64,000 nt of DNA from Bacteroidota bacterium (lineage in GTDB: Bacteria; Bacteroidota; Bacteroidia; Chitinophagales; Chitinophagaceae): contig CANGDH010000006.1 in assembly GCA_947452555.1 (NCBI GenBank), forward strand, positions 1 to 64,000, given 5' to 3'. The notes beneath the pieces are model-generated. The model was not told where the DNA came from. It saw nothing but the letters and a program-made list of their open reading frames with translations, and searched no databases. Positions 29,378 through 63,863 of the stretch are shown here, piece by piece. Position 1 is the first letter of the stretch, and each line of letters begins with the position of its first letter. Made by a program: the position numbers and the translations under genes.

Positions 29378-30442
29378 CTAATAGACCCAGCGATCTTGTT
29401 CGTAATCAAATATTTTTTGTCTAATTTTTTCACCCTCTTGTAAACGCTTAATAGGATCTTTATAAATCGCATTCAACATTTTGTCATTGTAATTGTCTAA
29501 AGTAGATTTTACGATATACCCATTAAAGAATCGACTCTCAAATAATTCTTCCCAAGTAATTCTACTTGAATAATTCTTAGGATTATATACTTCTGACTTT
29601 GCTAAACTTGCTCTTAATTCAGGATAATACATCCAAAATAAAGTACGCTTCACTACTTTGTTTCCAATTTGAATACTCGCCACTGGTGCAATACCTATAA
29701 TTCTACAATACATTCTACTTGTTTTGTTATCAAATATGTATTGTTCTTTTAAACGATATGTATAGATAGAATCTGGAACTGGAGCTAATTTAGTATTGTA
29801 TATAATTGTTGTATCGAAGATGTTCGGATTGTCAATATTTTGAACCATTTGAGTATCTAGACTTCCTTTTAAACTTGCGTTTACTTCGTCCATACTTAAA
29901 GGCTTTGTGAAACGATCGTCACCACCTTCTGCAGAGAATGGTACTACTCCGTCTTTCTCAATAGCTCTTAATAAAATAGCAAAGAAACGTTGATCTCCGT
30001 TGTCGTCGTATGCTTGATATATAAACGGACGATTAATTTTTTCACGACCGTCAATTTCTTCCCAAACAAATTCACTAAACAAGGCGTCTTCTTCTCTTAA
30101 ATTTTCATAAGGCAAAGGCAAACGTTCTTGTACGCCTTTACGTTTATTATTCTCTGAAAAGAATGCATAATTATTTCTCAAACTTCTTTTAGTGTTGGCA
30201 TTAAACCCTCCAACTACCGTTGTGTCAATAGTCTTGACAGGCTTTGCATTAGGATCAATTACTGCAATTGGCTTGGGAGCTGAAGTAACTGGGGCTTGAT
30301 TTAATGGAACTATTACAGTGTCTTTTGAAGGGCCTGTTTTAATTGCTTTTTGCTTGGAAGGATATTTAAACTGAGCAAATGAAGTATTTGCTACAATTAA
30401 ACCTGTTAGCATTAATAATAAGTATGGTTGAATCTTTTTCAT
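29378..30442 (-). CDS. gldN: T9SS / gliding protein GldN (PorN)
   Basis: GldN is a periplasmic component of the type IX secretion ring, partner of the outer-membrane-linked GldK. The 354-residue protein has a signal peptide (MKKIQPYLLLMLTGLIVANTSFAQ). A Pro/Lys-rich linker is followed by the GldN domain with ENLREEDALFSEFVWEEID, REKINRPFIYQ and LFWMYYPELRASLAKSEVYN. It is last in gldKLMN, 34 nt after gldM. Confidence 0.93.
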   Translation of the reverse strand: MKKIQPYLLLMLTGLIVANTSFAQFKYPSKQKAIKTGPSKDTVIVPLNQAPVTSAPKPIAVIDPNAKPVKTIDTTVVGGFNANTKRSLRNNYAFFSENNKRKGVQERLPLPYENLREEDALFSEFVWEEIDGREKINRPFIYQAYDDNGDQRFFAILLRAIEKDGVVPFSAEGGDDRFTKPLSMDEVNASLKGSLDTQMVQNIDNPNIFDTTIIYNTKLAPVPDSIYTYRLKEQYIFDNKTSRMYCRIIGIAPVASIQIGNKVVKRTLFWMYYPELRASLAKSEVYNPKNYSSRITWEELFESRFFNGYIVKSTLDNYNDKMLNAIYKDPIKRLQEGEKIRQKIFDYEQDRWVY

Positions 30443-30476
30443 AAATCTTTTTTTTAATTACACACTTCTCTTTTTA

Positions 30477-32021: not shown

Positions 32022-32068
32022 GTAAACTAGTTTTTAAAAAGGTAAATAATTGAATTAACAAATTTAGA

Positions 32069-32752
32069 TTAACGTCCTTGCATTGCTGTTAACATGTTTC
32101 CGTAAATCTGATTCAATTTAGTAAGGTTGTCTGCTAATAAAGCAATTTGCTCTTTAGCTCTCATTGCGTCGGCAGCAGAACTTGACATTGCATTTGACGC
32201 TTCTGATAATTTACCATAATAATTATTCATTGCTTCCATTGTTTTAGTCATGGTAACAAACTGTTCATTTAAATTCTTAACACCGTCAGTAGCAGATGCG
32301 AAATTTCCTAAATTACTTGCAACACTTGTAACAGAATCTTTTACTGTTCCTAATGCAATTGCAGCATCTCTTGTATTATTTGTAAAGTCTTTACTTGATT
32401 TAGCCATGTCAGCTAAGTCTCCTAAATACATTGCTGTATCATTTAGTCTTTGGAAACTTCCACTCAATTTTTCAAAAGCTGCTTGATCTAATTTAGCCGC
32501 TTCCATACTTGCAACAACAGAATCTGTTGTACCAGCAGCTAAACCAGCTCCTGGAGTCCCTAAATCTGGAGGTGGTAAAAAAGCATAAATTACAAATATT
32601 GCTGCTTCTGTAACCAAGCCTACTACTAAAATCCAGTCTGACCCTGGTAGGTTAATTAGTTTAGATAATGCACCTAAAATTACAACTGCTGCCCCTAATG
32701 AGATGACAACATTAATGATTTTGTTAGTTTTTGGGGAAATGGTATTTGCCAT
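32069..32752 (-). CDS. gldL: T9SS / gliding motor protein GldL (PorL)
   Basis: GldL is the proton-driven stator-like partner of GldM. The 227-residue protein has two N-terminal membrane helices (about 12-33 and 40-60) followed by a long cytoplasmic helical domain. A glutamate sits in helix 2 at residue 49 (GLVTEAAIF), the same position as the essential Glu49 described for Flavobacterium johnsoniae GldL. The motor is therefore expected to be functional. It follows gldK by 30 nt. Confidence 0.94.
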   Translation of the reverse strand: MANTISPKTNKIINVVISLGAAVVILGALSKLINLPGSDWILVVGLVTEAAIFVIYAFLPPPDLGTPGAGLAAGTTDSVVASMEAAKLDQAAFEKLSGSFQRLNDTAMYLGDLADMAKSSKDFTNNTRDAAIALGTVKDSVTSVASNLGNFASATDGVKNLNEQFVTMTKTMEAMNNYYGKLSEASNAMSSSAADAMRAKEQIALLADNLTKLNQIYGNMLTAMQGR

Positions 32753-32782
32753 TAGTAGAATTTATAAAAATTAAAAATTTGA

Positions 32783-34075
32783 TTATTTGCTTCTTGGACC
32801 CATAGATAAAACACATCTAAATCCAATATAAGATTTCGCAGTATCTTGGTACTCATAATTTCTTGTACTTACTTGACAATTGTATGCAATATCTTTCCAA
32901 GATCCACCTCTAATAACTTTACGTTTCATTAAAATAGGATCCGCATCTTTTGCATTGTATTGAACATCTGGGCTATAATCACCTAGGAAATTATATCCCC
33001 CTTCATAAAAAGATGAGCTAGTCCACTCAGCCACATTACCTGCTAAATCATATAAATCGAAACCACTTAAAGTTTGACTAAACGTACCCACTTTTGTAGT
33101 GTATATATTGTCTTGTTTTGTATTTCCACCTCCAAAATAATCTCCTCTTCCTGGTTTGAAATTTGCTAGTAATCTTCCCTGAATAGTTCTAGTATATGGC
33201 GAACCCCATGGATACATTGCGTTAGTTTTTGAATTGCCTCTCGCTGCATATTCCCACTCAGCTTCTGTTGGAAGTCGATAGATACCGTCTATTTTATATT
33301 CTGATTTCCCTTTTCTTCCTAAATAGTACTCGCTATTATTCGTTCTCCAATTACAAAAAGCATTTGCTTGTTTCCACGTAACTCCCACAACAGGATATTC
33401 ATTATATGCAGGATGAGAAAAATATAAACGCGTTTGGGGCTCATTATAAGAATAAGAGAAATCACGCATCCAAACTAAGGTATCTGGATAGACTGCTTGA
33501 CTTTGAGTCACTATAAAATCGCTTAGTGGTTGTTCCAAACCTTTTGAAGCTCTTGCAGCAGCTTTTAAATCAACATATGAATATTTGTAAATTAATTTAT
33601 TGGGGTCAATATCAATACGACCTTGAATTCGATTGTCCGGACTTAATAATAATTCATTCAATTTCTCAAGTACTGCTCTACTTTTCATATTGATTCTTGC
33701 AGCTCTTGACCAATCTACTCTTAATGTGTCTTCATTTTGATTAATACCCCCACCATAAATTGCTAAATATTTCAAAGAGTCTGAAACATAATTCACAAAC
33801 CTTCTATATTGCTCATTTGTAATTTCATATTTATCCATCCAAAAACCATTTACCGAAACCAATTTCTTTCGGTTGATCATTGCTAAGTCGATCTGCTCGT
33901 CGCTAGGTCCCATATAAAATGAACCTGAAGGTATTTCTGTCGTATTTCGGTCTGAACTGAATTTAGGCTTTTTACTGCCTATGGGACGTAATGCCATAAT
34001 TAGAAATGATCCAAAAATCAATGCTCCAACTAGTACAGGAAATCCAATTTTGCTATTTTTTATACTTTTGTTCAT
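32783..34075 (-). CDS. gldK: T9SS / gliding ring protein GldK (PorK)
   Basis: GldK forms the periplasmic ring of the T9SS with GldN. The 430-residue protein has the FGE/sulfatase-modifying-factor fold seen in GldK: GSFYMGPSDEQ, VNGFWMDKYEITNEQY, YPVVGVTWKQANAFCNWR, YRLPTEAEWEYAARG, DLAGNVAEWTSS and RGGSWKD. Characterised GldK/PorK proteins are lipoproteins. Here the N-terminus (MNKSIKNSKIGFPVLVGALI) has a hydrophobic helix but no cysteine, so a lipobox is absent and it is probably a signal-anchor protein. It is first in gldKLMN. Confidence 0.92.
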   Translation of the reverse strand: MNKSIKNSKIGFPVLVGALIFGSFLIMALRPIGSKKPKFSSDRNTTEIPSGSFYMGPSDEQIDLAMINRKKLVSVNGFWMDKYEITNEQYRRFVNYVSDSLKYLAIYGGGINQNEDTLRVDWSRAARINMKSRAVLEKLNELLLSPDNRIQGRIDIDPNKLIYKYSYVDLKAAARASKGLEQPLSDFIVTQSQAVYPDTLVWMRDFSYSYNEPQTRLYFSHPAYNEYPVVGVTWKQANAFCNWRTNNSEYYLGRKGKSEYKIDGIYRLPTEAEWEYAARGNSKTNAMYPWGSPYTRTIQGRLLANFKPGRGDYFGGGNTKQDNIYTTKVGTFSQTLSGFDLYDLAGNVAEWTSSSFYEGGYNFLGDYSPDVQYNAKDADPILMKRKVIRGGSWKDIAYNCQVSTRNYEYQDTAKSYIGFRCVLSMGPRSK

Positions 34076-50595: not shown

Positions 50596-51118
50596 TTATA
50601 ACAATCTTTCAATGGAGATGAAGTTGTTTGCAAACCCAGGGCCAACCATCAATGTGATTCTATAAAATCGTTGATTTGTAGTGTCTCTTAGAAAGTAATT
50701 TGCACATCCCCACTTTGAGCAAAATCCCAGGTTGTCCCTAAGTGAGCAAAAGTTGAAATTATAGTTGGTGTAATATCCGAAAAATAGGTAAAAGCATTTG
50801 TGCCTGAAGCTCCATTGTAGGTTGTATAGCCAGAAACCATTCCAGTAAAACTAGTTCCAGAATTGTTTATTTGCAAGCTTCTACTTCCTCCTGATGCCAT
50901 CCGAACCTGAATATCTCCAAGCATAACCGCTACTAGTAAAATCGAATAGATATCTTCCTGAAACTGGAACATTAAAACTAAAACCATTAGCCTTTATTTG
51001 TGGAATATACATCTAGCTTTGCTGAAGCATTCGGCGAAGTAGTACCAATACCTGTTTGTGCTTGCATTAATAAACAAGTAAATAATAACATAAAAGATGT
51101 GAAATATTTATAGCCCAT
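50596..51118 (-). pseudogene. Broken TGIGTT-type secreted protein (third repeat-module copy)
   Basis: The frame opens with a signal peptide (MGYKYFTSFMLLFTCLLMQA) and the TGIGTTSPNASAKLDV motif shared with the genes at 52460 and 55479, then stops at 50987. Homology-like sequence continues in other frames. ANGFSFNVPVSGRYLFDF runs to about 50920, GDIQVRMASGGSRSLQ runs to about 50700, and NYFLRDTTNQRFYRITLM ends at ISIERLL (stop 50596). At least three frameshifts (near 50990, 50920 and 50700) break one protein of about 170 residues. Its ATG overlaps the upstream gene's end by 11 nt. Confidence 0.75.
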
Positions 51119-52457
51119 ATTTATGTTTTGTTGCATTAAAATTCTGAAGAACTTCGTCAAAAGAAATTCCTCTGTTATAAATTTGAACAGATCCCAGATT
51201 TCCAATAAGACCCCCTACACCCGCTCTGCCTTCTCCTAGCCATAGATTCGACTGTGTATAATTAGTCCTTGTATTAGTTCGTGCAGCGCCATCTAATGCT
51301 CCATTTAAATACATTTGCATAGTTCCATTGGTAATCGTAAACCCAACTTGATACCATGTATTTAAACTGAGCGCTGTGGAGCCAAATAAATTATATTGAG
51401 TGTACGTATATAAGTTTTGATAATAATAGCCTGCATTTGGATATATAGCATAATGAAAATCACTATAGCCACCTGCGCCTGAGATATCGGTAAACCACTT
51501 GGTTAAAAAAATATTCCATCCATTATTTAAACTACTAGCTCTTAACCATACAAAAACACTTATGTCACCTGTTGCAGGGTAATTAGTAGGCGTCTTTCCA
51601 AAGTCAATATAGTCACCACTACCATCAGATAAAAAAGTGCCTGATGCGGTGCTACTATAAGCCATATTTCCTCCAATTGTTCCTACAGCATTGCCTTTTA
51701 AATCATAAGTATATGGACCATACTTTGGATAAGTATACCAATTTCCTGGATCAACTGAAAACACAAGACCATTGGGGGCCACTTCCTCCCCTGACAGTTC
51801 TTCAACATCTTGATACCAAAGGGAACCACTAGCTTCTGATGGTTTTTTCCAAAATAATTGTAGTGCATCTCCTCCAAATCCTTGCTGCATTCTTACTCTA
51901 AATGAATATTTCTTTCCTGCTGTTAATATTATAGTACCTATATGCGTTCCAATTGCGGAAATTCCATGTCCTCCATATTGATTCACCACGTTTTGATCGT
52001 TTAAAAATAAATCAACCGCGTCATCGCCTTCTATAGAAAAAGTGTAAGTCCCTGTTTGTTTGGGGATGAAATATCCTGATATTACAATGGCATAACCTTG
52101 ACCATTAAACCCACTATATGGTGTTGCATTTCCAATTGAAGTCCCTAATTGTGTATAGTTGGCATAATTTAAAATATTATTTGCAGCACTTATTGAGCTA
52201 TTTAAATTACCTACATTACTAGCCAAGGTAACATACCCAGAGGTTTTATAATTTGCTGCAATAACATAAGTGGATTCAAACTCAGCAGCTGAATTTGGAT
52301 TGGTAGAAGTGGATGAAGTATAAAGTCGATAATACAAATATTTATTCCCCTTAGGTCTATTACTTTCTAAGGCTGCATAATAATTAGGCAAAAATTGTGC
52401 ACTAACAAAATTGTTCCACAATAGAAATATAAAAATATAATAACAGCTTCTTTTCAT
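51108..52457 (-). CDS. Secreted PA14 + LamG-like lectin-fold protein
   Basis: This 449-residue protein has a signal peptide (MKRSCYYIFIFLLWNNFVSAQ). A PA14-like carbohydrate-binding domain (about 110-215) shows YFIPKQTGTYTFSIEGDDAV and DLFLNDQNVVNQYG. A concanavalin/LamG-like domain (about 230-445) shows DGSGDYIDFG and WYQVGFTITNGTMQMYLNGA. It ends in YNRGISFDEVLQNFN...KYGL. No T9SS sorting tail is present. Its end (TATGGGCTATAA) contains the ATG of the next gene. It starts 2 nt after the upstream TGIGTT gene. Confidence 0.82.
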   Translation of the reverse strand: MKRSCYYIFIFLLWNNFVSAQFLPNYYAALESNRPKGNKYLYYRLYTSSTSTNPNSAAEFESTYVIAANYKTSGYVTLASNVGNLNSSISAANNILNYANYTQLGTSIGNATPYSGFNGQGYAIVISGYFIPKQTGTYTFSIEGDDAVDLFLNDQNVVNQYGGHGISAIGTHIGTIILTAGKKYSFRVRMQQGFGGDALQLFWKKPSEASGSLWYQDVEELSGEEVAPNGLVFSVDPGNWYTYPKYGPYTYDLKGNAVGTIGGNMAYSSTASGTFLSDGSGDYIDFGKTPTNYPATGDISVFVWLRASSLNNGWNIFLTKWFTDISGAGGYSDFHYAIYPNAGYYYQNLYTYTQYNLFGSTALSLNTWYQVGFTITNGTMQMYLNGALDGAARTNTRTNYTQSNLWLGEGRAGVGGLIGNLGSVQIYNRGISFDEVLQNFNATKHKYGL

Positions 52458-52459
52458 TT

Positions 52460-53152
52460 TTAATTACTCATTTCTCCTGATATGATATAAGTTCCACCAA
52501 TATATAAGACTGTAGCAATGGCATATTGACCTGCGGTTTTTGTAAAACTATTTCTATTGCTAAATGTCCCAGAAAAACTGACCTGCCCTGACCCAAATTG
52601 TAAGACCATACAATTAAAGCCTTCAGGCAAAGTACCCGCAGCTGGTAAAGTAAGAGTTAGTGCAGCAGTACTTTTTAGAATCATTCCATTATCGGCGACT
52701 GTTAATGTTCTACTTGAAGATTCTGAACTTGTATTAGAAACGAACCCGCTTAATTTAGAAGTAGCTACATTACCTCCTGTTAAATTTCCAGTGGTTGAAA
52801 TATTGCCTGCGGTGTAACTAATATCATTACCCGTTTTAGTCCATTCTGAATTCAATCTTACCCAATTTGGTGATCCGACAGTTCCGCTGTTTAAATAAAA
52901 CCCAATCACGCCATCGGTTTGATAAATCAATAAACCATTTGCGGGACTTGTAATGGCAGCTCTTTGTGCACTAGTCATTCTTGGAACTAATAACCCTTTC
53001 GTTGTAGAAGTGATATCTAACTTCGCAGAAGCATCTGGCAATGTAGTTCCAATGCCGGTTTGTGCATGTATTGATTGAGCAAAAAATAAAACCGAAATGA
53101 TCGGTAAAAAAAATATTTTTAATACCCGTGTATTTTTTTTCTTAGAGTCCAT
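52460..53152 (-). CDS. Secreted TGIGTT-type surface protein
   Basis: This 230-residue protein starts at the ATG ending at 53152; the longer frame to 53197 lies inside the upstream gene. The start is [20 protein letters not shown], a signal peptide. The mature N-terminus is [20 protein letters not shown], then [16 protein letters not shown] and GLLIYQTDG. This is a very common Bacteroidota surface/tail-fibre-like start. The C-terminal part ([20 protein letters not shown]) resembles the last domain of the giant protein in this operon. The ATG overlaps the upstream stop in ATGGACTCTAA. Its function is unknown. Confidence 0.8.
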
Positions 53153-55475
53153 ATCTACTTCGGTTTGCGTTAAAATTAGTGAGTACATCTTGTGCACTTA
53201 ATGCCTTTTTATATAATCTTACAATTCCTATATTACCTGTAAAACTTTGGGCATACTCGTTTCCATTATAAATTCCTAAGTATAATGGATTTGAAGAATT
53301 AAATAAACTTGACATAGTATGTGTGACTGTGCCAATTGACTTTCCATTCACAAATGTTTCTAATGTTTTTGTTGCACCTGCTTTCCAAACATATAAAACT
53401 TGATACCAAGTATTAGCCGCAATAGTATACCCTGTTGAATTAATATAAGTCCCGGTTCCATCACCCATTTGTGCATAAAGGTTTGAACCGCTTGTTCTAA
53501 TCATATAAGAAACCGCCGAGGAAGCTCCTCCATTATTAACCTTACCTAATATAACTGTACTACCTGATGTATTGGTACTATAAAACCATGCTTCCATGCT
53601 CCAATCACTCGTGCCAGGCTCCATCGTAGCATTATCTGCAATACTCACTTGCGTTACGGATCCGTTAAAAGTTAAATAACCTTTATTAGGCATGCTATAA
53701 GTAGGACTACTTCCTAGTGTTCCAATATTTCCATTTCCAGAAATATCATACCAAGTAGTACTCGTACCATTATAAGCAGCTAGATTTCCCGCATCCATAT
53801 GAAGCAATAATCCGTCTGAAACAATGTTATTAGATTTGATAATTAAGCCCATTCTCATAGTAATATGGTTCGTCCATGTTTGTGGAACAAAACGAACATA
53901 TTTTGCATATACAACATTTGGGAAGTAAACGATTACGGCATCGGTGGAATTGGTATTGAAATTTGAATTGGTTAATACATTGATCCAATTTGTGCCATCT
54001 ATACTAACATCCACATTCCCAGTATTCACCCATTGACCTCCATTATAAGCTCTTCCCTGTGTAACAATTCCAGTAATATAGGCGGGAATATCATAGTTTA
54101 AAATGATATATTGACTCGTATTATTTACTTGGGCAGACCAACCTTGCGGTGAATTTAAATAAGGTGTAAAATGCAATGGCAAACCCGATCCTGGATATGG
54201 AGCATTTGCGTAAAATACATCTCCAGCACCACTAGAACCTGTTGAATAATTCCAAGAACTTGAAACTGACCAATTGATAGGGTTAGTGTTAGTTGATGGA
54301 CTATGTATAAATGTATTATTAAGATTATTAGAAGTCCCAGGCATCCATTTACTTGTGGCATCTGTAAATACTATTTTACCAGTTCCACTTAAAATAATTT
54401 TATTTGCATTCAACTTACTAGCACTTGCAACATTAACCGTATGTCCATCATTTACTTGTAAGCCTCCAAATAAATTGGGATAGTTAGAAGTATTGGTAGT
54501 GCCTAATACATTGGAATTACTCAATGTAAACGCTACATCGTTATTATGCACTACATAAGCTGAATAAACACCTGAATAATCAGAACCTCCTGGAAAATCG
54601 GCACTATATTCCACTAAATACCCTCCAATGCCTGAGCTATTCCCGTCTGCAAGGTCATTCCAACAAGTAGCTCCTCCCCATTTTGCTACTGCCGCATCTT
54701 CTCCATTTCTACTTCCATCAGAATTATTAGGTTCACTAGTGCACCAATTTGCATATTGTCCAGCAACAGTTAGACCATCAGCCGCATAAGCAGTATAAGT
54801 TGTATTCGTCACTCCTGAAACAGTCGTATTCCAAATATTTATATTCGCTTCTGGACCAGCGTCTAAAATCCATTTACCTTCCGTTGTAGCATCTGATAAT
54901 GCAATCCATATGTTATTATATGATACGTTATTATTAATAAAATCATTTTCAGACTGCGAAGTAATCGTTGCTAAATATGCATTTTTACCCTTAAAAGAAG
55001 CTTGCCCAGAAGCTCCAGATTTCGCATTTGTATAAGTGGTCGCTCCGCTGATAAATTTATAAAAATGTTTATTTACTGGATTGTAAAAATAGCTTGCATC
55101 ATATGTAGACACTTCGATATTAATTCTAACCGCTGTCTTAATAGTTCCCATGGAAATTGTCATAGCAGCCAAAGCAGCATTAATATTATCTTTTGTTCCA
55201 TAAAATACAATACTAGATATGCCAGTCCATAAATTATATCCATAGTTACGAGTAATACCTGTAGTGGTTGGAAAACTCAATGTAGCACCACTATGATAAT
55301 CCAGACTCAAACTTATCAAAATATTATCTGTATTATTTGTCCAATTCACTACAAAATCTCCGGCATCAACCCCTGTTGCATTTGCCTCTATTGTTAATGG
55401 AGCTGGTGCTGTAATACCCTGTGCAAAACTACTTATGTTTATAAATAAAAAAAGAAAAATAAATAACTGTTTCAT
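53142..55475 (-). CDS. Secreted C-type lectin + discoidin + LamG protein
   Basis: This 777-residue multidomain surface protein has a signal peptide ([19 protein letters not shown]) and a beta-rich N-terminal domain. A C-type lectin-like domain (about 130-285) carries [16 protein letters not shown], the EPN motif ([11 protein letters not shown]) and CWNDLADG. In characterised lectins the EPN and WND motifs bind Ca2+, and EPN favours mannose-type sugars. An F5/8-type-C (discoidin-like) domain follows (about 410-550), then a LamG-like domain (about 560-775) ending NANRSRYGL. No T9SS sorting tail is seen. It starts 3 nt after the S74 gene. Confidence 0.83.
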
Positions 55476-55478
55476 TGT

Positions 55479-56201
55479 TTACCTATTTCTTTTTTTACTC
55501 AACTTGCTTACTTTTATAGTTAAATTATCTATCTGTTTCTGTTGATCCTTAATGGCTTCAACTAAAAGCGCTACCAGCTTATCATATTTAACTGAACGAT
55601 ATTCTTCTTTAGTTTTATCTTTCGAAACAATTTCAGGAACTACTTTTTCTACTTCTTGCGCAATAAATCCAAGTTCGTCTTGTGCCCCAAATTCTTTTTC
55701 TGGAAACGCTTTTTGGTTCCAATTAAAGTAAACACCTCTTAGTAATTTTACTTTATCCAATGCGTTTACTATGGGACGGATATTTGTTTTAAAACGAATA
55801 TCTGAAGTGCCTGCAATGGAGTTCGCTGTAATATCTCCGTTTACATATAATTTAGTACTTGGCGTTGTAGTACCAATGCCTACATTTCCTCCATTGGGAT
55901 TTAGGAGTAAATTATAAAATGTCCCATAAGCTGTTTTAGATCTCGCTTGTATCCATGAAAAAGTAGATGTACTGCTTAAACCAAAATCTAAGACATGAGA
56001 AGCAGATACGCCGCTTAAACGTATATTTCCATTCGCAGTAGCTCCTGTTATTGCTGGATCCGCAGTCGCAGTTTCAATTTGCAATTTATTCACCGGAGCA
56101 GTGGTGCCAATACCTGTTTGTGCTTGCGATGATTTTACAATAAACAATATAGCAATGAGCGGTAAGAAACGTATTGCTTTCTTTTTGCTATACAATCTCA
56201 T
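55479..56201 (-). CDS. Secreted TGIGTT protein with tail-fibre S74 chaperone domain
   Basis: This 240-residue protein has a signal peptide (MRLYSKKKAIRFLPLIAILF), the TGIGTTAPVNKLQIETATAD motif, and GNVGIGTTTPSTKLYVNGDI. A C-terminal intramolecular-chaperone domain of the peptidase S74 / phage tail-spike type follows: SDIRFKTNIRPIVNALDKVK, GFIAQEVEKVVPEIV and YDKLVALLVEAIKDQQ, ending in a coiled coil. In phage fibres such domains trimerise the shaft and may then cleave. That suggests trimeric assembly here. The ATG overlaps the LuxR-type gene by 14 nt. Confidence 0.85.
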   Translation of the reverse strand: MRLYSKKKAIRFLPLIAILFIVKSSQAQTGIGTTAPVNKLQIETATADPAITGATANGNIRLSGVSASHVLDFGLSSTSTFSWIQARSKTAYGTFYNLLLNPNGGNVGIGTTTPSTKLYVNGDITANSIAGTSDIRFKTNIRPIVNALDKVKLLRGVYFNWNQKAFPEKEFGAQDELGFIAQEVEKVVPEIVSKDKTKEEYRSVKYDKLVALLVEAIKDQQKQIDNLTIKVSKLSKKRNR

Positions 56202-56409
56202 ACTCTTGAGCTAATTTATATAAGTTTATACTATTGGTCACTTTCATCTTATTAAGAATTTGTTTTTTGAAAGTCGATACTGTATTGGATTTGACTTCTA
56301 GTGTTGCACCAATATCTTTTACTTGAACACCTTGTAAGATTAAATCAAGCACTTCTCTTTCACGTCTTGAAAGAATTTCAAATGGACTGTTGTTTAAATT
56401 TTTTGTCAT
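56188..56409 (-). CDS. Stand-alone LuxR-type HTH regulator
   Basis: This 73-residue protein consists of only a LuxR/NarL DNA-binding domain: ILSRREREVLDLILQGVQVK, DIGATLEVKSNTVSTFKKQI and LNKMKVTNSINLYKLAQEY. There is no receiver, sensor or membrane segment. It lies inside the surface-protein operon, 36 nt after the giant gene, and overlaps the S74 gene start in ATGAGATTGTATAG. An AT-only palindrome lies just upstream. It is likely a local regulator, but its target is unknown. Confidence 0.85.
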   Translation of the reverse strand: MTKNLNNSPFEILSRREREVLDLILQGVQVKDIGATLEVKSNTVSTFKKQILNKMKVTNSINLYKLAQEYEIV

Positions 56410-56415
56410 TTATAT

Positions 56416-56431
56416 TAATTAATATTAATTA
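56416..56431. promoter_or_regulatory. 16-bp AT palindrome before the LuxR-type gene
   Basis: TAATTAATATTAATTA is a perfect palindrome centred about 14 nt upstream of the regulator ATG. It may be an operator for autoregulation. As it contains only A and T it could also be chance in this AT-rich genome. Confidence 0.35.
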
Positions 56432-56445
56432 GAATAGTTTAGTTT

Positions 56446-59400
56446 TTAGAACAATGCTCTGAATGCAATCCAGCTTGTGCCATCTGAAATAACTTTTATC
56501 CAATTATTTGATGGTTCTACGCCTATTATTGCAGAGGTAGACGTTGCTGTTGAATTATCTTGAATAATATACTGTGTACTGGTTGTAGCAATACCCAAAG
56601 AATAAGCACTTAAATTTTTAATGGTAAATTCCTTGCCAGCACAACCTATAGCAGTAGGTAAAGTGAATGTTTGTCCAGTAGCTGCAGAATTACTCATTAT
56701 GACATAATTATCATTCAGCGTTAATGTGTAACTAGTGGTTTTTGCAACTAATGTGTTTACCCCTGTTTGCCATGTAGCTAAGCCATTTGCATCAGATGTT
56801 AAAACTTTATTTAAGCCTGCCCCATTTGAGATTTTTACTGTACTACTAAAAGTTGCAGCTCCTGTAACTCCCAATGTTCCCCCCACCATTTCATTACCTG
56901 TAATTGTCGAACTTGATAAAGTTGAAGCACCCGCATTTAAAGTTGAAGATAAACTTAATGATGTACCACTTGCTGCTCCAATTATCGGAGTTACAAGTGT
57001 TGGAGTATTTGACAATACTAAACTACCAGTTCCCGTTGAAGTTGTTGTACCTGTTCCACCATTAGCTATTGCAATGGTTGTTCCACTCCATGTTCCTGTT
57101 GTAATGGTGCCTACTGTTGTAATATCAGTTCCAACTAATTTACTTGAAGCAATACTACCAGCTAACATACTATTAGTTACTTTACTTGTTCCAATAGTTG
57201 AAGTAACCGTTCCTGTTCCAGTTCCTGTAATATCACCAGTCAATGTTATAGTTTGATCACCTGTATTTGATCCACTTAATGTTGCAATACCTAATTTAGC
57301 TTTTATAGAACTCAATGTTTCGTCTCCACTATTTGTTCCTGATGTATTTGAAATTACTCCCGCTTGCACATCTGTTACATAATTTCTATTCAAACTAGGT
57401 GACACATTTGCGGTAGTTGCGTTTGCAGCCATAACATCTGTACTTATAGCTAATCCTAAATTCGTTCTTGCAGCAGCAGCACTCGTTGCACCTGTTCCAC
57501 CATTTGCTATTGCAATGGTTGTTCCACTCCATGTTCCTGTTGTGATGGTGCCTACTGTTGCTAAATTAACTAATGATGTTAATGTAGTATTTGCAGTTGC
57601 TGTAATGTTTCCCGCCATAGTTGCAGTCGTAGCAGTTGTTGCATTACCTGTTGTATTTTGATTTAAAGTTGGAATAGCGTTATAAGAAATTTCTTTTGTT
57701 GTAGTATTATAGAATAAAAAAGAAGCGCTAGATGAATTGTTTATTGGATCCACAAAAAAACCAGCACTAGCCGGATTTAAATTATTACCAGTAGCATTTA
57801 ATGCGATGCTGTTAGCTGCTTGGCTATTACCTGCAAATGCACCAATGGCAACACTATTGGCTCCTTGTCCGTTTTGTCCAGCTGCATATCCAATTGCTAC
57901 AGCAGCTTCTGCTTGAGTGCCACTTTGAGCTGCATTACTTCCAATTGCAATTGAATGGGCACCTTGTGTTCCACCTCCTGAAGCATAGCCAATGTTAAGC
58001 TTGGGAACGTTGGCATTAAACTTGTTATTAAATGTAGTCCAATCGGTACTACTTAAATATCCATTCGTAGTTGAAGTAGACAAGGGAATTGAAAATGTAC
58101 CAGTTGTGTTATTATAAGTTATTGGAGAAGTTGCAGTCAAACCAGTTAACCCTATGCCTCCTAATCCAGCCAATGTATAATTAGGAATGTTTAATATGTT
58201 GCTTGTAAAGCTAGCAGTTCCTGCATTTCCACTTGTAGTTACAGTGATTGGAGATTGATAATCGTTGCCAGCTATTAATGGTGCTTGCACATTGGTACCA
58301 ATCACTAAACCCAAATTTGTTCTTGCAGCAGCGGCATTTGTAGCGCCTGTTCCACCATTAGCTAATGCAATAGTGGTTCCACTCCATGTCCCTGAACTGA
58401 TGGTACCCACGGATTCTAAATTAATTAATGATGTTAATGTTGAATTAGTTGTAGCTGTAATATTGCCTGCTGTTGTAGCTGTAGAAGCATTACCTAAAAA
58501 TTCAGGAGCAGTAATTGAACTATTAAATATTTTTGCACCTGATATAGTTTGTGAACTTGTTGAAATTAAACCTGGATTTATTGCATCTGCAGGAGTTAAT
58601 GTTAATGAAGTACCACTTATATTTCCTCCAGATGAATAAGTTGAAGATGTAGAATAAGTCAACGTATTAACACCCGCAATAATACTAGTTGTACTTGCAG
58701 AAGTCAATCTACCTTTTGCATCCACCGTAAAAGTTGGAATAGCTGTTGATGAACCATAGCTGCCTGCAGTTACTGAAGTATTTGCTAATGTTGAAGAAAA
58801 AGTTCCCATACCAGTACCTGTAATATCTCCAGTTAAAGTGATAGTTTGGTCGCCTGTATTTGTTCCACTTAATGTAGTTATTCCTAGTTTAGTTTTTATT
58901 GAACTTAATGTTTCATCACCACTATTCGTTCCTGAAGTATTTGATATCACTCCCGCTTGTGCGTCGGTTACATAATTTCGATTTATACTTGGAGCAACAT
59001 TTGCAGTAGTTGCGTTTGCAGCCATCACGTCTGTGCTTATAGTCAACCCTAAATTTGTTCTTGCAGCAGCTGCTGTGGTTGCGCCTGTCCCACCATTTGC
59101 TAATGCGATACTAGTTCCACTCCATGTTCCTATACCAATCGTACCAACTGTTGAAATATCAGTTCCAATTAATTTGGATGCAGGAATAGATCCGTATAAT
59201 TTATCGGCAGTAATACTACCCGATAATTTTGAATTAGTAATACTTCCATCCGCAACACCTGCATTTGCATTTTGTGCATCAATATATGTTTTAACTGCCT
59301 TTTGTGTTGGATATAGAATATCACTAGGTGTAGTACTTCCTAAATCGGTAGCTGTCGTTTTATTTAAAACTGCTTCAGCTCCTAAATTTATTAATGCATT

Positions 59401-62061
59401 TACTGAAGTGGTTGCACCAGTTCCTCCTTTTGCAATTGCTAAAGTTGCTCCACTCCAGGTTCCACTAGTAATAGTACCAACTGATGTTATATCAGTACCT
59501 ACTAAATTACTTGCACTAATACTTCCTGCCAGCATTGCATTAGTTACTTTATTCGCCCCAATACTTGTTGTAAAAATGCCTGTCCCTGTTCCTGTAATAT
59601 CCCCTGTTAATGTAATAGTCTGATCTCCCGTATTTGATCCAGTTAAATTAGCGTCTCCAATTAAAGTCAAAGTTTTGCTTGTGGTTCCTCCTGTAACAGT
59701 AAATCCAATAGATTGCGGTGCGATAGTTAAACCATTAATTGTTTTATTACTTAATGCTTCTGAACCTGTCAGTGTAACAATAGTTCCATTTGTTGGTAAA
59801 GTAATATTAGTAGCTCCTGTTGTAGTCAATGTTATTGCATTAGTTCCTGCTGTAATTAAATTACCTCCCAATGTGATTGTTTTACCTGAATTTGCTACAC
59901 CTGTACCACCGTTTGCACCAACAACTATTCCACTACCAGCAATATTTGCAGCTGTTCCTGTTGTATTTTGATTTAATGTCGGGATGTCTCCTGCTACAAT
60001 ATTTCTAAAACTTGGAATACCTGATGCTCCATCAGGAGAAGCAAAAATCGTATTTGCTGCCTGAGATGTAAATGCAGCTTGTTTATTATTAAAATTATTC
60101 CAATCGCTTGAACTTAAAAAACCATTCGTGTTTGTATTGGATTGTGTAATAGAAAAAGTTCCTGAACTTGCGTTATACGTTAAAGGCGCAGACGCGGACA
60201 CTGCATTTCTTGCTTGTGTGTTTGAATAATATTTATTTGTAGCACCTTCCGTAATATTATCACTTGTTAGTGTCACATTTGGACCTGCATTTCCATTCAC
60301 GCTAGTGACTGAAGTTGGAACTGCTAATACAATCCAACTACTAATATCCGAAGCAGGCAATACACTTAATACATAGTTCCTATTATTATCTGTTCTAATA
60401 GCAATACTTCCAACCTGCGCACTTGGAATAGCAAGCATAGCTGCTTCATTTACTACCACTGTAGCACTTTGAAATGAAATAGCAGGTATTTGATTTGAAG
60501 GAATTTTTCCGTCATTACCTAAACTAGCAACTCCATTATTTGCTGCTTTTTCTGTTGAATTTATTTTATTATTAAATGTGTTCCAATCACTTGAAGATAA
60601 AAAACCATCTACTGAAGCACTGGCATTATTTATAGCTATGGTGCTGCCAGTTTTTACTAATGGATTTGAGAAAGTCAAAGGTGCTTGAAAATCCGATGTC
60701 GCATTATTTGCAGCTGATCCAAATGTTCTTTGTGCTAAAACATTAGTACCAATAGCTACACCCAACGCAGCTCTTGCTGTACTTGCTGTGCTTGCACCTG
60801 TTCCTCCATTAGCAATAGACACTATCCCGTTTACATTATCAGCATTACCTATTATATTACCTATTATTTTAGAACCAGTAACTGTCGCAATTTTAGCATC
60901 GGTAACTGCACCATCAAATATTTTTAAAGTTGTAATTGCGTTTGTAGCAACTAATGGGAAATCAGCAGTTCCTGCTAAATCACCAGCAAGTTTAACCTTG
61001 CCTTTTGTATTAATGTCTGCGTCAGCAACACCACCAACAGCTGCATCTACATATGCTTTTACTGCTTTAACACTTGGATATTTGTTATCAGAAGCTGCAT
61101 CTGTTGTTACAGAAATAGATTTATTATTTAAGTTTTCTTTTGTATCTAAAATTAATTGTGCAGCTGAACTTACTGGTTTGTTTATGTCAGTTGTATTATC
61201 TACATTCTCTAATCCTACCATCATTTTGTTAATTCCACTAACAGTTCCAGTGAATGTAGGTGAAGCTAGTGGTGCTTTTAAAGCAATCGTTGTTGTAATT
61301 GGTGTTTGATCAAATGTTTTTAACGCAAGTTGAGCTGGAGTAACATAAATACTATTACTATCTGCTACATTCACTTTTGAATCAAGGCTTGCGTTAATAG
61401 CAGCAGCAGTTAATGAAGTTATATTGGATGCTACTAATGCGTTAACCATTTGCTTGTATGGCGCTAACATGGCAGAAGTGTCTGTTGTAGAAATTTTTGT
61501 TGCAACAGCAGAAGATAAGCTCTGAACTGCTTGAGCTTTTGCATACAAGGATAACATTTTAGTGGTGTCCGCTATATTCAATTTACTATCCAAGGCGCCA
61601 CTAGAGCCAGCATATAATGCATAAGGCACTGTTCCAAACGGGGTCGCTCCTAAATCTATCCAGTCTTTACTATAATCCCAGTTTGGAACAGGGGCGATAG
61701 GTTTTATGGCGATTTTTAAACTTAAAAAATAAGGACCTTTTGCCCACTCAACTTTATCTAAACTTGAAACGATACCACTAGTTCTTGTACCATTACCAAT
61801 ACTAATACCGAAAATACCAGTTGCGTCTGTTGTTGTCTGATGTAATTCTGTTAATACTTTAGTACCAGCTGCAGTACTTTGTATTATACTTGCTTCCACA
61901 TATATCTGTCTATCTTTTGCAGGATTAGAAAAATTATCTCTAGCTACTGCTTGAAAAAAAATACCTACCCCTGATCCTTGAGCAAACAATTGACTTGATA
62001 TTACAGTTAAAAAAAATGCAATAAAAGTCAGGGGGATGTTTACTTTAAAAAACTTGTTCAT
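56446..62061 (-). CDS. Giant repetitive surface fibre/adhesin-like protein (1871 aa)
   Basis: The signal peptide ends at FLTVISSQLFAQ. An N-terminal domain (about 29-155) shows GIFFQAVARDNFSNPAKDRQ, GIFGISIGNGTR and WIDLGATPFGTVPYALYA, a pattern I associate with large Bacteroidota surface proteins. A phage-tail-fibre-like stretch (about 255-345: ALKAPLASPTFTGTVSG, MVGLENVDNTTDINKP) follows. The body is Gly/Thr/Ala/Asn-rich, with five GTWSG-GGTGA repeats (near residues 869, 981, 1227, 1515 and 1658) and repeated NTGDQTITLTGDITGTG and TSGTNSGDETLSSIK units. A YadA-head-like segment (about 1357-1427) has SIAIGSNAAQ, AVAIGYAAGQ and SVAIGAFAG. A small C-terminal domain ends IAFRALF. Cysteine is almost absent. 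No T9SS tail is seen. It is probably an extended, perhaps trimeric, fibre. Confidence 0.85.
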   Translation of the reverse strand: MNKFFKVNIPLTFIAFFLTVISSQLFAQGSGVGIFFQAVARDNFSNPAKDRQIYVEASIIQSTAAGTKVLTELHQTTTDATGIFGISIGNGTRTSGIVSSLDKVEWAKGPYFLSLKIAIKPIAPVPNWDYSKDWIDLGATPFGTVPYALYAGSSGALDSKLNIADTTKMLSLYAKAQAVQSLSSAVATKISTTDTSAMLAPYKQMVNALVASNITSLTAAAINASLDSKVNVADSNSIYVTPAQLALKTFDQTPITTTIALKAPLASPTFTGTVSGINKMMVGLENVDNTTDINKPVSSAAQLILDTKENLNNKSISVTTDAASDNKYPSVKAVKAYVDAAVGGVADADINTKGKVKLAGDLAGTADFPLVATNAITTLKIFDGAVTDAKIATVTGSKIIGNIIGNADNVNGIVSIANGGTGASTASTARAALGVAIGTNVLAQRTFGSAANNATSDFQAPLTFSNPLVKTGSTIAINNASASVDGFLSSSDWNTFNNKINSTEKAANNGVASLGNDGKIPSNQIPAISFQSATVVVNEAAMLAIPSAQVGSIAIRTDNNRNYVLSVLPASDISSWIVLAVPTSVTSVNGNAGPNVTLTSDNITEGATNKYYSNTQARNAVSASAPLTYNASSGTFSITQSNTNTNGFLSSSDWNNFNNKQAAFTSQAANTIFASPDGASGIPSFRNIVAGDIPTLNQNTTGTAANIAGSGIVVGANGGTGVANSGKTITLGGNLITAGTNAITLTTTGATNITLPTNGTIVTLTGSEALSNKTINGLTIAPQSIGFTVTGGTTSKTLTLIGDANLTGSNTGDQTITLTGDITGTGTGIFTTSIGANKVTNAMLAGSISASNLVGTDITSVGTITSGTWSGATLAIAKGGTGATTSVNALINLGAEAVLNKTTATDLGSTTPSDILYPTQKAVKTYIDAQNANAGVADGSITNSKLSGSITADKLYGSIPASKLIGTDISTVGTIGIGTWSGTSIALANGGTGATTAAAARTNLGLTISTDVMAANATTANVAPSINRNYVTDAQAGVISNTSGTNSGDETLSSIKTKLGITTLSGTNTGDQTITLTGDITGTGMGTFSSTLANTSVTAGSYGSSTAIPTFTVDAKGRLTSASTTSIIAGVNTLTYSTSSTYSSGGNISGTSLTLTPADAINPGLISTSSQTISGAKIFNSSITAPEFLGNASTATTAGNITATTNSTLTSLINLESVGTISSGTWSGTTIALANGGTGATNAAAARTNLGLVIGTNVQAPLIAGNDYQSPITVTTSGNAGTASFTSNILNIPNYTLAGLGGIGLTGLTATSPITYNNTTGTFSIPLSTSTTNGYLSSTDWTTFNNKFNANVPKLNIGYASGGGTQGAHSIAIGSNAAQSGTQAEAAVAIGYAAGQNGQGANSVAIGAFAGNSQAANSIALNATGNNLNPASAGFFVDPINNSSSASFLFYNTTTKEISYNAIPTLNQNTTGNATTATTATMAGNITATANTTLTSLVNLATVGTITTGTWSGTTIAIANGGTGATSAAAARTNLGLAISTDVMAANATTANVSPSLNRNYVTDVQAGVISNTSGTNSGDETLSSIKAKLGIATLSGSNTGDQTITLTGDITGTGTGTVTSTIGTSKVTNSMLAGSIASSKLVGTDITTVGTITTGTWSGTTIAIANGGTGTTTSTGTGSLVLSNTPTLVTPIIGAASGTSLSLSSTLNAGASTLSSSTITGNEMVGGTLGVTGAATFSSTVKISNGAGLNKVLTSDANGLATWQTGVNTLVAKTTSYTLTLNDNYVIMSNSAATGQTFTLPTAIGCAGKEFTIKNLSAYSLGIATTSTQYIIQDNSTATSTSAIIGVEPSNNWIKVISDGTSWIAFRALF
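57233..57560. repeat. Long internal direct repeat in the giant gene, copy A
   Basis: This segment encodes, on the minus strand, STDVMAANATTANVSPSLNR, NYVTDVQAGVISNTSGTNSG, DETLSSIKAKLGIATLSG and DITGTGTG, with a flanking GTWSG-GGTGA unit. Copy B at about 58820-59150 encodes nearly the same residues in the same order. DNA identity is high but not perfect, so the duplication is not very recent or is under selection. Confidence 0.75.
58820..59150. repeat. Long internal direct repeat in the giant gene, copy B
   Basis: Second copy of the repeat at 57233-57560, in the same orientation about 1.6 kb away. It encodes STDVMAANATTANVAPSINR, NYVTDAQAGVISNTSGTNSG and DETLSSIKTKLGITTLSG. Differences from copy A are mostly at third codon positions. 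Confidence 0.75.
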
Positions 62062-62069
62062 ATAATAGC

Positions 62070-62582
62070 TTAATTGGCTTTAATAAATTTGATAGCGTCT
62101 ACAAAACTTGTGGACGCTATTTTCAGGACATAGCTTCCCGCTGTCAGACTTCCTAAGTCGATAGTTAATCCTTGGAATAAATTGTAACCTGTTTCCTTTC
62201 GAGTACTAATCATTATACCTTCTGTTGTCCAAACACTTAAATTAAATATTTCAGTAAGTGGTGGTGTATTTATCAACTTCACGCTGGTAACATTACTTAC
62301 TGGGTTAGGATATAGTTTGATGCCAAGTGTATTAAACTGCATTTTCACTTCGCAGTTTATTGCGAACTGTCCGTCACTGCGATCCCCCTTTAATACCGCA
62401 ATACCCGACTGTACGTCAATACAAGCTGCTGTACTTTTAAAATTAATCGCAGCTATATTACTAGACGTTCCCGCAAAACTTCCAATACTACTCATCATAA
62501 ATCCCTGCGCTGCCGCTTGCTTTGCAGTGACTAATATGATGATTAGCATGGCCGTCAAAAAATAGAGTTTATTCAATTTCAT
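62070..62582 (-). CDS. Small secreted protein with T9SS type A sorting domain
   Basis: This 170-residue protein has a signal peptide (MKLNKLYFLTAMLIIILVTA), a mature part of only about 65 residues with two cysteines (TAACIDVQSG and FAINCEVKM), and a C-terminal Por-secretion/T9SS sorting domain (about 90-170). The sorting domain shows LGIKLYPNPVSNVTSVKL, IFNLSVWTTEGIMI and GSLTAGSYVLKIAS. Such tails direct export by the T9SS and are usually cleaved at the surface. It lies 8 nt before the giant gene and 24 nt after the lipoprotein gene. The role of the small cargo is unknown. Confidence 0.85.
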   Translation of the reverse strand: MKLNKLYFLTAMLIIILVTAKQAAAQGFMMSSIGSFAGTSSNIAAINFKSTAACIDVQSGIAVLKGDRSDGQFAINCEVKMQFNTLGIKLYPNPVSNVTSVKLINTPPLTEIFNLSVWTTEGIMISTRKETGYNLFQGLTIDLGSLTAGSYVLKIASTSFVDAIKFIKAN

Positions 62583-62606
62583 TATTTTAATTACTATTAA
62601 TGATCC

Positions 62607-63035
62607 CTAGTTTTTATTGCTATAAAAAAGCTTAGTGGTCACAGTACTAATGGTATAGGTTAAAACCATATGTTTGTCTCCCATAGATTCAATAGTATAG
62701 ATATACTCAATACTCCCACCATTACTCGTTTTAGCTTGTACCTGTATTTGTAACTGACCATTAATTTTCTCTACGGTATAGATTCCACTAATACCATCCG
62801 AGTCAACTGTAGTTAAATTTTTCAAGAAATTTATAAAGTAAGTAGACTGTCCAACATATGTTTTTGTTTTCACCGAGGTACCTGTAAAAGTTTGTGCATA
62901 GTCCAAGTACCAGGTTTTGTCGGATATCATTTTATAAGACAAGCTTGTCTCAGCACCTGCTGTGTCCTTAGAACATCCAGTTAAATAGATCGCCGCGATC
63001 AGTAAGATCAAAGTATATTGAAATATTTTTTTCAT
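62607..63035 (-). CDS. Small lipoprotein of unknown function
   Basis: This 142-residue protein has a lipoprotein signal peptide (MKKIFQYTLILLIAAIYLTG) with lipobox LTGC, so Cys21 is the likely lipidated residue. The mature part looks like a small beta-barrel or lipocalin-like fold: SDKTWYLDYAQTFTGTSVKT, SGIYTVEKINGQLQIQVQAK and MVLTYTISTVTTKLFY. Several Bacteroidota lipocalin-like lipoproteins share this W-x-L start, but the family is not certain. It lies 30 nt after the outer-membrane barrel gene in the fibre operon. Confidence 0.78.
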   Translation of the reverse strand: MKKIFQYTLILLIAAIYLTGCSKDTAGAETSLSYKMISDKTWYLDYAQTFTGTSVKTKTYVGQSTYFINFLKNLTTVDSDGISGIYTVEKINGQLQIQVQAKTSNGGSIEYIYTIESMGDKHMVLTYTISTVTTKLFYSNKN

Positions 63036-63065
63036 TGTCTAATGGTATAATGGTTCTGTCGACGT

Positions 63066-63863
63066 TTAGAATACATCACTTGCTTTTATCTTCATACCTA
63101 GCTCCAAACTATTCATATTGGTGCTAATAGGTGATTTAGTGATGGAGTTAATCCCTTGCCTATAATGCAGGAACAATGTGTAATAAGATTTATTATCAAA
63201 CGCTAGCCCTATATCTGCTTTTAGCATAAAACGTTGGTAGTTATTGTTCACTAAATTGTCAGCGCCTTGTCCTGATAAGCGCGTGTCCAAACTAGGACCT
63301 GCAATTACATAAAACTTGTATTTAGCAGTATCTGTGATGGGAATTAGTTTTTTGTAATGTGCTGCAATACTCAAAGTGAAGAACTGATCGTCTGCCTTAA
63401 AATGAGAGAATGAACCAATAAAAGGAGCCAATGTGCCGGCGTCCTTATAATTAGTACCAGTCGCAATTTTATTTAAACAAAAGGCAAAAGAATAAGCATG
63501 ATTTTGCTTGAACTTGCCGTCTACCGTAAAACCAGCATAATAACCTGGCTTGAATACGTTTTTATTATAATCTGACAGATCGTAGTTAAATGGCGCATTA
63601 TACCCCCCAGCTTTGATGTTTTGCTTTGAAAAGTTAATACCTGCAGTTAAGAACACGTCATTGTCCGTGAAGTCTACAAAAACCTTATCCCATGATTTAA
63701 TGACCTCTTTTTTGAATTTACGAACACGCTCCGAAAGCGGCTTATTTAAGTACAAATTATCTTCCTGCTTTTTTGTTAGCTTTTTTAAATTCGGCGTTTG
63801 GGCCTGAACTGTGATTAATGAACATAATAAAACACAAGACAAAAAGAATTTACCTTTTAGCAT
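63066..63863 (-). CDS. Outer-membrane beta-barrel protein, first gene of the fibre operon
   Basis: This 265-residue protein has a signal peptide (MLKGKFFLSCVLLCSLITVQA), a charged helical N-terminal segment (about 25-60), and then alternating strands: DVFLTAGINFSKQNIKAGGY, PGYYAGFTVDGKFKQNHAYS, FFTLSIAAHYKKLIPI, KFYVIAGPSLDTR and LELGMKIKASDVF. This fits a small outer-membrane barrel of about 8-10 strands. It is not recognisably PorP/SprF. As first gene of the operon it may anchor or export the surface proteins encoded downstream, but that is inference. Confidence 0.78.
   Translation of the reverse strand: MLKGKFFLSCVLLCSLITVQAQTPNLKKLTKKQEDNLYLNKPLSERVRKFKKEVIKSWDKVFVDFTDNDVFLTAGINFSKQNIKAGGYNAPFNYDLSDYNKNVFKPGYYAGFTVDGKFKQNHAYSFAFCLNKIATGTNYKDAGTLAPFIGSFSHFKADDQFFTLSIAAHYKKLIPITDTAKYKFYVIAGPSLDTRLSGQGADNLVNNNYQRFMLKADIGLAFDNKSYYTLFLHYRQGINSITKSPISTNMNSLELGMKIKASDVF

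Follow-up and report, generated by a model that had tools for sequence, protein, structure and literature searches.

T9SS substrates are recognised by a sorting domain (CTD) on the cargo itself, and the grappling hooks of Aureispira are a T9SS-linked long surface device. For the SprB/SprF pair and other type B CTD substrates with PorP/SprF shuttles in Flavobacterium johnsoniae, the adhesin is described to carry a type B CTD and the shuttle to be a PorV-like barrel (PMC12618676, PMC12635249). In type A CTD substrates the cargo is normally on the same chain as the CTD; PorV carries these substrates through SprA (PMC10994853).

The operon analysed here encodes a fibre that lacks such a domain next to a small protein that has one. 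It is located at positions 50596-63863, on the minus strand of a 64,000-nt stretch (hereafter the window) of contig CANGDH010000006.1 (GCA_947452555.1, uncultured Bacteroidota bacterium, Chitinophagaceae), which also comprises the canonical gldK, L, M and N genes at 29378-34075. A barrel, a lipoprotein, the small CTD protein (mini-CTD protein), an 1871-aa fibre, a LuxR helix-turn-helix (HTH) protein and four TGIGTT/lectin-type proteins are encoded, followed by a broken tenth gene (Table 1); the structural products carry signal peptides, as judged by eye. The genes are tightly packed, with gaps of 30 nt between barrel and lipoprotein, 24 nt between lipoprotein and CTD gene, 8 nt between CTD gene and fibre, 36 nt between fibre and LuxR gene, 3 nt between S74 and lectin gene and 2 nt between the 245-aa TGIGTT and the PA14 gene. 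Overlaps amount to 14 nt for LuxR and S74 and to 11 nt both for PA14 and the broken gene (ATG at 51118) and for lectin and TGIGTT, the latter provided that translation begins at the internal ATG (53152). In the broken gene a stop interrupts the frame at 50987, and coding-like sequence continues in another frame to 50688. These gap and overlap coordinates, together with the Pfam domains, confirm the compact single-strand operon of nine intact genes and one broken gene that a first-pass annotation had reported. Three products, namely barrel, fibre and the TGIGTT protein of 245 aa, matched no Pfam family.

Table 1. Genes of the operon, in order of transcription, with positions in the window.
Feature	Positions	Strand	Basis
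Outer-membrane barrel-like protein, 265 aa, short N-terminal extension	63066..63863	-	barrel nature read from sequence
Lipoprotein, 142 aa, homologous to lipoprotein of sister (GldL/GldM-type) loci	62607..63035	-	profile comparison
Mini-CTD protein, 170 aa: signal peptide, N-part, type A T9SS sorting domain	62070..62582	-	Pfam, NCBIfam, alignment, model
Fibre, 1871 aa: signal peptide, FIBN, helical stretch, repetitive shaft, knob-like C-terminal end; without CTD	56446..62061	-	
Bare LuxR/GerE helix-turn-helix protein, 73 aa	56188..56409	-	Pfam GerE 5.6e-16
TGIGTT protein with Peptidase_S74 chaperone domain, 240 aa	55479..56201	-	Pfam 1.3e-17; PHROGs
777-aa protein: C-type lectin, F5_F8_type_C and LamG domains	53142..55475	-	Pfam
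TGIGTT protein, 245 aa from GTG 53197 (230 aa if start is ATG 53152)	52460..53197	-	open reading frame
PA14 and LamG domain protein, 449 aa	51108..52457	-	Pfam
Broken TGIGTT gene	50688..51118	-	frame broken

The order of the genes is not a matter of chance, because it recurs in other genomes. Among relatives of the same genus, the lipoprotein gene directly follows the barrel gene in all 26 uncut loci and the CTD gene follows the lipoprotein gene in 25 of the 25 loci with room for it, while a fibre gene with the FIBN domain (approximately residues 30-145 of the 1871-aa fibre) comes after the CTD gene in 21/25 of the barrel loci. The exceptions are CTD genes that precede a TGIGTT gene (L125, L126), an unrelated gene (L122) or a gene on the opposite strand (L133). 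Counted from the CTD gene, 49 of 55 distinct genes in the genus loci have a FIBN fibre directly after them; the pairing recurs also where no relative of barrel or lipoprotein was seen alongside (e.g., L050, L052). Judged by gene order, the operon is a conserved module whose genes form one conserved unit. The expectation that barrel, lipoprotein, CTD protein and fibre are linked in relatives, rather than scattered, was thereby borne out. Two near-identical copies of the stretch from barrel to CTD gene were also noted.

By sequence and predicted fold, the mini-CTD protein ends in a type A CTD. It exceeds the curated cut-offs of Pfam Por_Secre_tail (PF18962, 30.3 bits vs. 27) and of the NCBIfam type A model TIGR04183 (27.8 bits vs. 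23), so that the tiny T9SS-tailed protein of the first-pass annotation indeed has a type A sorting domain. Furthermore, the protein matches the PDB profile 8glk_D (3.9e-5), and its modelled C-part matches the fold of the mirolase CTD 8qb1 (E 9.4e-5). The N-part of about 60 aa contains two invariant cysteines in an alignment of 33 sequences and is modelled with low confidence, thus no binding surface can be named. On the window fibre, neither Pfam nor NCBIfam models detected a CTD; Por_Secre_tail was matched by 0 of 37 fibre C-termini, and none of the complete FIBN proteins in the loci of the order (0/72) or in a phylum sample (0/9) has a CTD of its own. Since the C-terminal CTD is absent, we rejected the fibre as a T9SS CTD substrate in its own right. 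It was likewise rejected as a type B CTD adhesin, given that the fibre has no NCBIfam match and that the CTD protein is of type A (TIGR04183).

A mini-CTD gene is located directly upstream of 32 of 97 FIBN genes in the order, compared to 0 of 131 control genes (Fisher p 4e-14), and of 22 of 28 FIBN genes in the phylum sample, or 19 of 24 if four loci of the same order are left aside. In the genome that contains the window, six mini-CTD frames were found, each of them immediately before a FIBN gene (6/6); of four large CTD proteins, none is in such a position (0/4). This pairing well beyond the genus suggests that the tag may act from a separate molecule. That a protein with little besides a CTD is linked to a fibre devoid of one fits the export adaptor envisioned earlier; the linkage is shown, and action in trans is what we infer from it.

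The explanation we prefer is that the mini-CTD protein connects the fibre, which has no CTD, with the T9SS, be it as an export adaptor, as a surface anchor or in both roles; we consider this reading evenly balanced between right and wrong. The structural products would enter the periplasm via their signal peptides. The fibre has FIBN as base domain and is probably trimeric, as phage tail fibres are; it would arrive there without a T9SS signal, which would be supplied by the mini-CTD protein. The CTD of the latter would dock in the SprA/PorV translocon as other type A CTDs do, while its N-part, alone or with barrel and lipoprotein, might engage the base of the fibre. The fibre could thereby be led out of the cell, held at its surface, or both, and the TGIGTT, S74 and lectin-type proteins may, to judge from their domains, add binding surfaces.

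It is a real possibility, albeit one we lean against, that the mini-CTD protein is a small substrate of the T9SS like any other, which works at the surface by itself as a co-adhesin, socket or cap and is simply co-expressed with a fibre that leaves by an unrecognised signal of its own or through the barrel. In a co-variation test, FIBN distances were not specifically tied to the N-part of the mini-CTD protein (partial r -0.07), which counts for this reading and against the adaptor, and the 65 of 97 FIBN genes of the order without a mini-CTD gene directly upstream need another route, if their products are exported. However, the pairing recurs where barrel and lipoprotein are not alongside (L050, L052) as well as in the phylum sample, and co-expression alone does not predict that the CTD is absent from every complete FIBN protein examined. 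Improbable in our view is that fibre and partners stay periplasmic or leave in membrane vesicles, with the CTD protein being unrelated to their localisation. Vesicles are suggested as a route for other CTD-less Bacteroidetes proteins in one study (PMC6247017), but the presence of lectin, PA14 and S74 domains, together with shafts that reach 2687 aa, suits a role outside the cell, and the pairing with a gene for a T9SS signal would be left unexplained.

The resemblance to phages requires consideration as well. Among the eight operon proteins scanned against PHROGs, the S74 protein matches many tail families, with tail-fibre PHROGs among them (best 6.6e-33), the 245-aa TGIGTT protein has one weak match, and both lectin proteins match the virion structural phrog_8510 across their LamG part; the fibre, the CTD protein and the barrel have none. 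Although these matches and the one broken gene might point to a decaying prophage remnant or an otherwise non-functional cluster, the signal peptides, T9SS CTD, lipoprotein and barrel, the long intact frames, the order conserved in the genus and the fibre, CTD protein and barrel free of PHROG matches make this scarcely credible.

Regarding the export adaptor or anchor, the remaining partners deserve attention. The barrel matched none of the NCBIfam families at E 0.1. We took a match to the PorG model plus a cysteine in the C-terminal tail as the mark of PorG; the window barrel, aligned with 16 relatives, was rejected as such, as it has no NCBIfam family and cysteines only at 10, 14 and 129 of 265, and it gave no profile match to the PorG-like protein of sister loci. 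The operon lipoprotein is homologous to its counterpart in these loci (probability 98.8 and E 5.9e-17 in a profile comparison). Beside their fibre genes, the sister loci code for PorG-like, GldL_N and GldM C-terminal parts. The GldL-like proteins exceed the cut-off of PF22827 in all 15 long frames and retain both the glutamate and the lysine of the GldL transmembrane segment; the essential glutamate aligns with canonical GldL and is invariant in 9/9 aligned sequences. Of the GldM-like proteins, one was scanned with Pfam, and it reaches PF12080 at its cut-off (24.6 bits). In the two loci scanned with NCBIfam, L034 and L033, GldL scored 23.9 and 38.9 bits (cut-off 68.3), GldM gave no match, and PorG scored 53.7 (cut-off 130) in L034 and nothing in L033. 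Consequently, we rejected GldL, GldM and PorG at equivalog level for these two loci. The transmembrane glutamate together with a GldM partner, by which we recognise a putative GldL/GldM motor, is present in sister loci and absent from the window operon. This suggests that some fibres of the sister loci may possess their own motor.

The initial assumption that the LuxR HTH protein acts as the local regulator was weakened. Downstream of the fibre, its gene is present in the window, L037 (= L122), L039, L119, L125 and L126, but not in L045 and L117. Directly before the barrel, 20 of the 26 uncut loci have an AraC gene (12) or a histidine kinase/response regulator pair (8), and two more lie at a contig edge. 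The window operon is preceded by a same-strand gene of AraC type, located just outside the window (contig 64022-65209, 158 nt before the barrel), which is a likelier regulator than LuxR.

In its widest form, the proposal would be a general two-gene route of Bacteroidota, in which a mini-CTD adaptor exports or fixes a CTD-less, phage-like fibre via the T9SS in trans, with a dedicated GldL/GldM/PorG-type motor module in part of one genus's clusters. We put this forward tentatively and regard it as rather unlikely in full. If a separate small CTD protein does serve CTD-less cargo, lists of T9SS substrates obtained by CTD search miss surface proteins that make up a large class. Whether export or anchoring takes place in trans would then be directly testable through one small gene. 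In the sister loci, the transmission of GldL/GldM force to the outer membrane could be studied in a second setting.

Compared with known systems, the operon shares with phage tail fibres the S74 and TGIGTT matches to PHROGs and weak matches of the FIBN model to tail-fibre N-domains among viral models, whereas it differs by bacterial signal peptides, T9SS CTD, lipoprotein, barrel and a fibre without PHROG match. The sister loci resemble the T9SS motor and PorG (PMC8986121, PMC12635249); however, their GldL-like and PorG-like proteins are longer, score below the NCBIfam cut-offs and are encoded beside fibre genes, and the window operon has none. As with SprB/SprF, a putative large surface adhesin has a gene for an outer-membrane barrel in its company and a connection to the T9SS, but here the fibre lacks a CTD, a small protein of its own bears the type A CTD, and the barrel matched no NCBIfam family. 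With type A substrates the mini-CTD protein has its C-part in common, by sequence and fold, while its chain differs in that, apart from signal peptide and CTD, no more than about 60 residues are left.

Re-examination of the window sequence confirmed the minus-strand gene map of the first-pass annotation. Neighboring genes of the operon are separated by gaps of 2-36 nt or overlap by 11-14 nt. Domains were assigned with Pfam and NCBIfam, and signal peptides were judged by eye.

Genes of the operon in window coordinates
Gene product	Position	Strand	Remark
Barrel	63066-63863	-	
Lipoprotein	62607-63035	-	
Small CTD protein	62070-62582	-	
1871-aa fibre	56446-62061	-	
LuxR HTH	56188-56409	-	
S74 protein	55479-56201	-	domain from Pfam/NCBIfam
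777-aa lectin protein	53142-55475	-	domains from Pfam/NCBIfam
TGIGTT protein	52460-53197	-	or start at 53152
PA14/LamG protein	51108-52457	-	domains from Pfam/NCBIfam
Broken TGIGTT gene	50688-51118	-	last gene of the operon

The window comprises the first 64,000 bases of a contig of 113,143 bases, from a 2.28-Mb genome of 13 contigs that is 89.65% complete. Upstream of the barrel gene, 158 nt away and beyond the window, the next gene encodes an AraC-type regulator. Positions 29378-34075 of the window hold the canonical gldK, L, M and N genes; SprA is encoded on a different contig. Because its final gene is broken, the operon seems to have a changing set of end proteins. In the small protein bearing the T9SS sorting domain (CTD), the cysteines at residues 54 and 77 are invariant across 33 aligned mini-CTD proteins.

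The lipoprotein was matched in 17 of 60 genomes, every one from the genus set (n = 37); one match is a contig-edge fragment and another is weak. In the order, its profile matched in 5 of 298 genomes. When titled genomes were scanned, 28 loci had a barrel relative; two of them are cut within the barrel and 26 are uncut, including one whose barrel is short and probably broken. The first-pass annotation had proposed a search for conserved synteny of barrel, lipoprotein, small CTD protein and fibre, and this synteny is found in relatives: the lipoprotein directly follows the barrel in 26/26 uncut loci, a CTD gene follows the lipoprotein in 25 (the remaining contig stops short of this position), and in 21 of these 25 a fibre comes next, recognized by FIBN, the N-terminal domain of the window fibre (about residues 30-145). 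Of the four exceptions, two carry a TGIGTT-type gene, one an unrelated gene and one a gene on the opposite strand. These loci and the earlier genus loci are not independent, because several, judged by their length, are identical contigs. Among all genus loci fetched, 49 of 55 distinct CTD genes are directly followed by a FIBN fibre (33/39 in window-type loci, 16/16 in the sister loci discussed below); the loci were picked via CTD, lipoprotein or barrel matches, and the fibre played no part in the choice. The operon is a real, conserved gene unit. One locus titled Comamonas (CALPWK020000022.1) bears this Bacteroidota operon and adjoins NADH dehydrogenase-type genes like its relatives; its title is probably wrong.

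Directly 5' of the barrel, 12 of the 26 uncut loci have an AraC gene and 8 a histidine kinase/response regulator (HK/RR) pair. A LuxR gene stands after the fibre in the window, L037 (identical to L122), L039, L119, L125 and L126, and not behind the fibre in L045 or L117. In HK/RR-type loci (L036, L042, L046, L088, L091, L113, L127-L130, L132, L136, L265), a second FIBN fibre is encoded divergently from the kinase gene, often with a gene for a 190-237-aa protein behind it.

The source genome probably contains a second operon, as judged from two contig ends. Contig C10 ends with a histidine kinase, a response regulator and a barrel start that is 99.2% identical to window 63575-63816 over 242 nt, while the end of contig C13 holds a 136-nt stretch of full identity to the CTD gene's end (window 62068-62203), then an 815-aa fibre. 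These probably are the two sides of one operon with the HK/RR pair in front and a different fibre, and its barrel-to-CTD part looks nearly identical to that of the window. In that case, two different fibres share one cassette. The flanks of two near-identical copies could be swapped in assembly; relatives support the gene order of the window as assembled.

The pairing of mini-CTD and fibre genes recurs beyond the genus. At E 0.1, Pfam assigned the window fibre to no family, and a FIBN alignment was built from the first 200 residues of 48 fibres; FIBN matched in 92/149 genomes of the order and 46/198 of the phylum. Order loci outside the genus were selected by FIBN alone (28 from the search, 60 hand-picked from about 150 listed places), giving 97 FIBN genes whose upstream sequence spans 600 nt or more. 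For 32 of these 97, the immediately preceding gene is small (at most 260 aa) and encodes a T9SS CTD, compared with 0/131 other genes (at least 250 aa) of the same loci (Fisher p 4e-14); the CTD profile was retrained on order-locus hits, which affects cases and controls alike. Four further FIBN genes sit behind another FIBN gene. In the phylum sample, a small CTD gene precedes 22/28 FIBN genes, or 19/24 without four loci from the same order, one of which repeats an order-set locus. The fibres themselves lack the signal: none of 72 complete FIBN proteins of the order loci and none of 9 in the phylum sample has an own CTD, and Por_Secre_tail matched 0/37 fibre C-termini (window and 36 genus-type loci). 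Frequent as it is, the pairing is not universal: directly upstream of 65/97 order FIBN genes there is no mini-CTD gene.

Within the source genome, a CTD-family search (E 0.01) returned ten frames, of which six are small (178-196 aa) and four large (532-1678 aa). All six small frames (window, L033, L034, L266-L268) are directly followed by a FIBN gene, which by coordinates holds for no large frame. Eight FIBN genes were found: six are these partners, the seventh lies beside a contig edge that cuts off all but the end of a CTD gene, and the eighth runs divergently from the HK/RR-barrel start; the list may be incomplete, since the assembly is.

Two of these loci (L033, L034) are preceded by genes for a GldL-like, a GldM-like and a 701-714-aa protein and a lipoprotein homologous to that of the window. 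The GldL-like gene matches PF22827 (1.4e-9, L034) or TIGR03513 (8.5e-10, L033), the GldM-like gene PF12080 (4.3e-5, L034). The end of the 701-714-aa protein is PorG-like in L034 (NF052316, 2.3e-14, under its cut-off), with no NF052316 match in L033. When 60 genomes were searched using only GldL_N, short GldL frames came up along with 15 long GldL-like ones (486-569 aa); the latter are spread over 13 of the 37 genus genomes (L033, L034, L077-L079, L083, L085, L087, L094, L269-L274). GldM-like and PorG-like genes come next in 15/15, three being cut within the PorG-like gene; where the contig continues, the lipoprotein follows in 12/12 and a FIBN fibre further downstream in 11/11, in two of these 11 (L271, L272) without a CTD gene directly before the first fibre. 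The GldL glutamate, strictly conserved and essential according to PMC8986121, is invariant in nine aligned GldL-like proteins and aligns with that of canonical GldL. BLAST, an insensitive search here, found no GldK or GldN in the sister loci. FGE-sulfatase is the fold family of GldK, and FGE-sulfatase-type proteins of about 510 aa are encoded downstream of some sister fibres (L034 237-1775; L081, L082, L083); the domain was seen in the single one scanned with Pfam, and two of the four match GldK marginally.

The mini-CTD protein would contact the fibre and lead to its export or surface fixation, perhaps as one assembly. In a distance-matrix test of 26 loci, the mini-CTD N-part and FIBN gave a partial r of -0.07, which speaks against a specific bond between these two parts. 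Co-variation is closer for barrel with lipoprotein (r 0.91) and for lipoprotein with mini-CTD N-part (r 0.79), so the adaptor could act through barrel and lipoprotein. A T9SS signal acting in trans, with its own motor in some loci, is a tentative proposal, somewhat less likely than not.

Taken together, the operon is a new variant of T9SS-linked surface proteins. In the T9SS as described, type A CTDs bind within SprA against PorV (PMC10994853), type B adhesins employ cognate PorP/SprF shuttles (PMC12618676) and GldK is disulfide-linked to PorG and SprF (PMC12635249). In view of this, the location of a CTD-less fibre gene next to one for a CTD-only protein suggests a signal that acts from a separate molecule, in fibre export or surface fixation.
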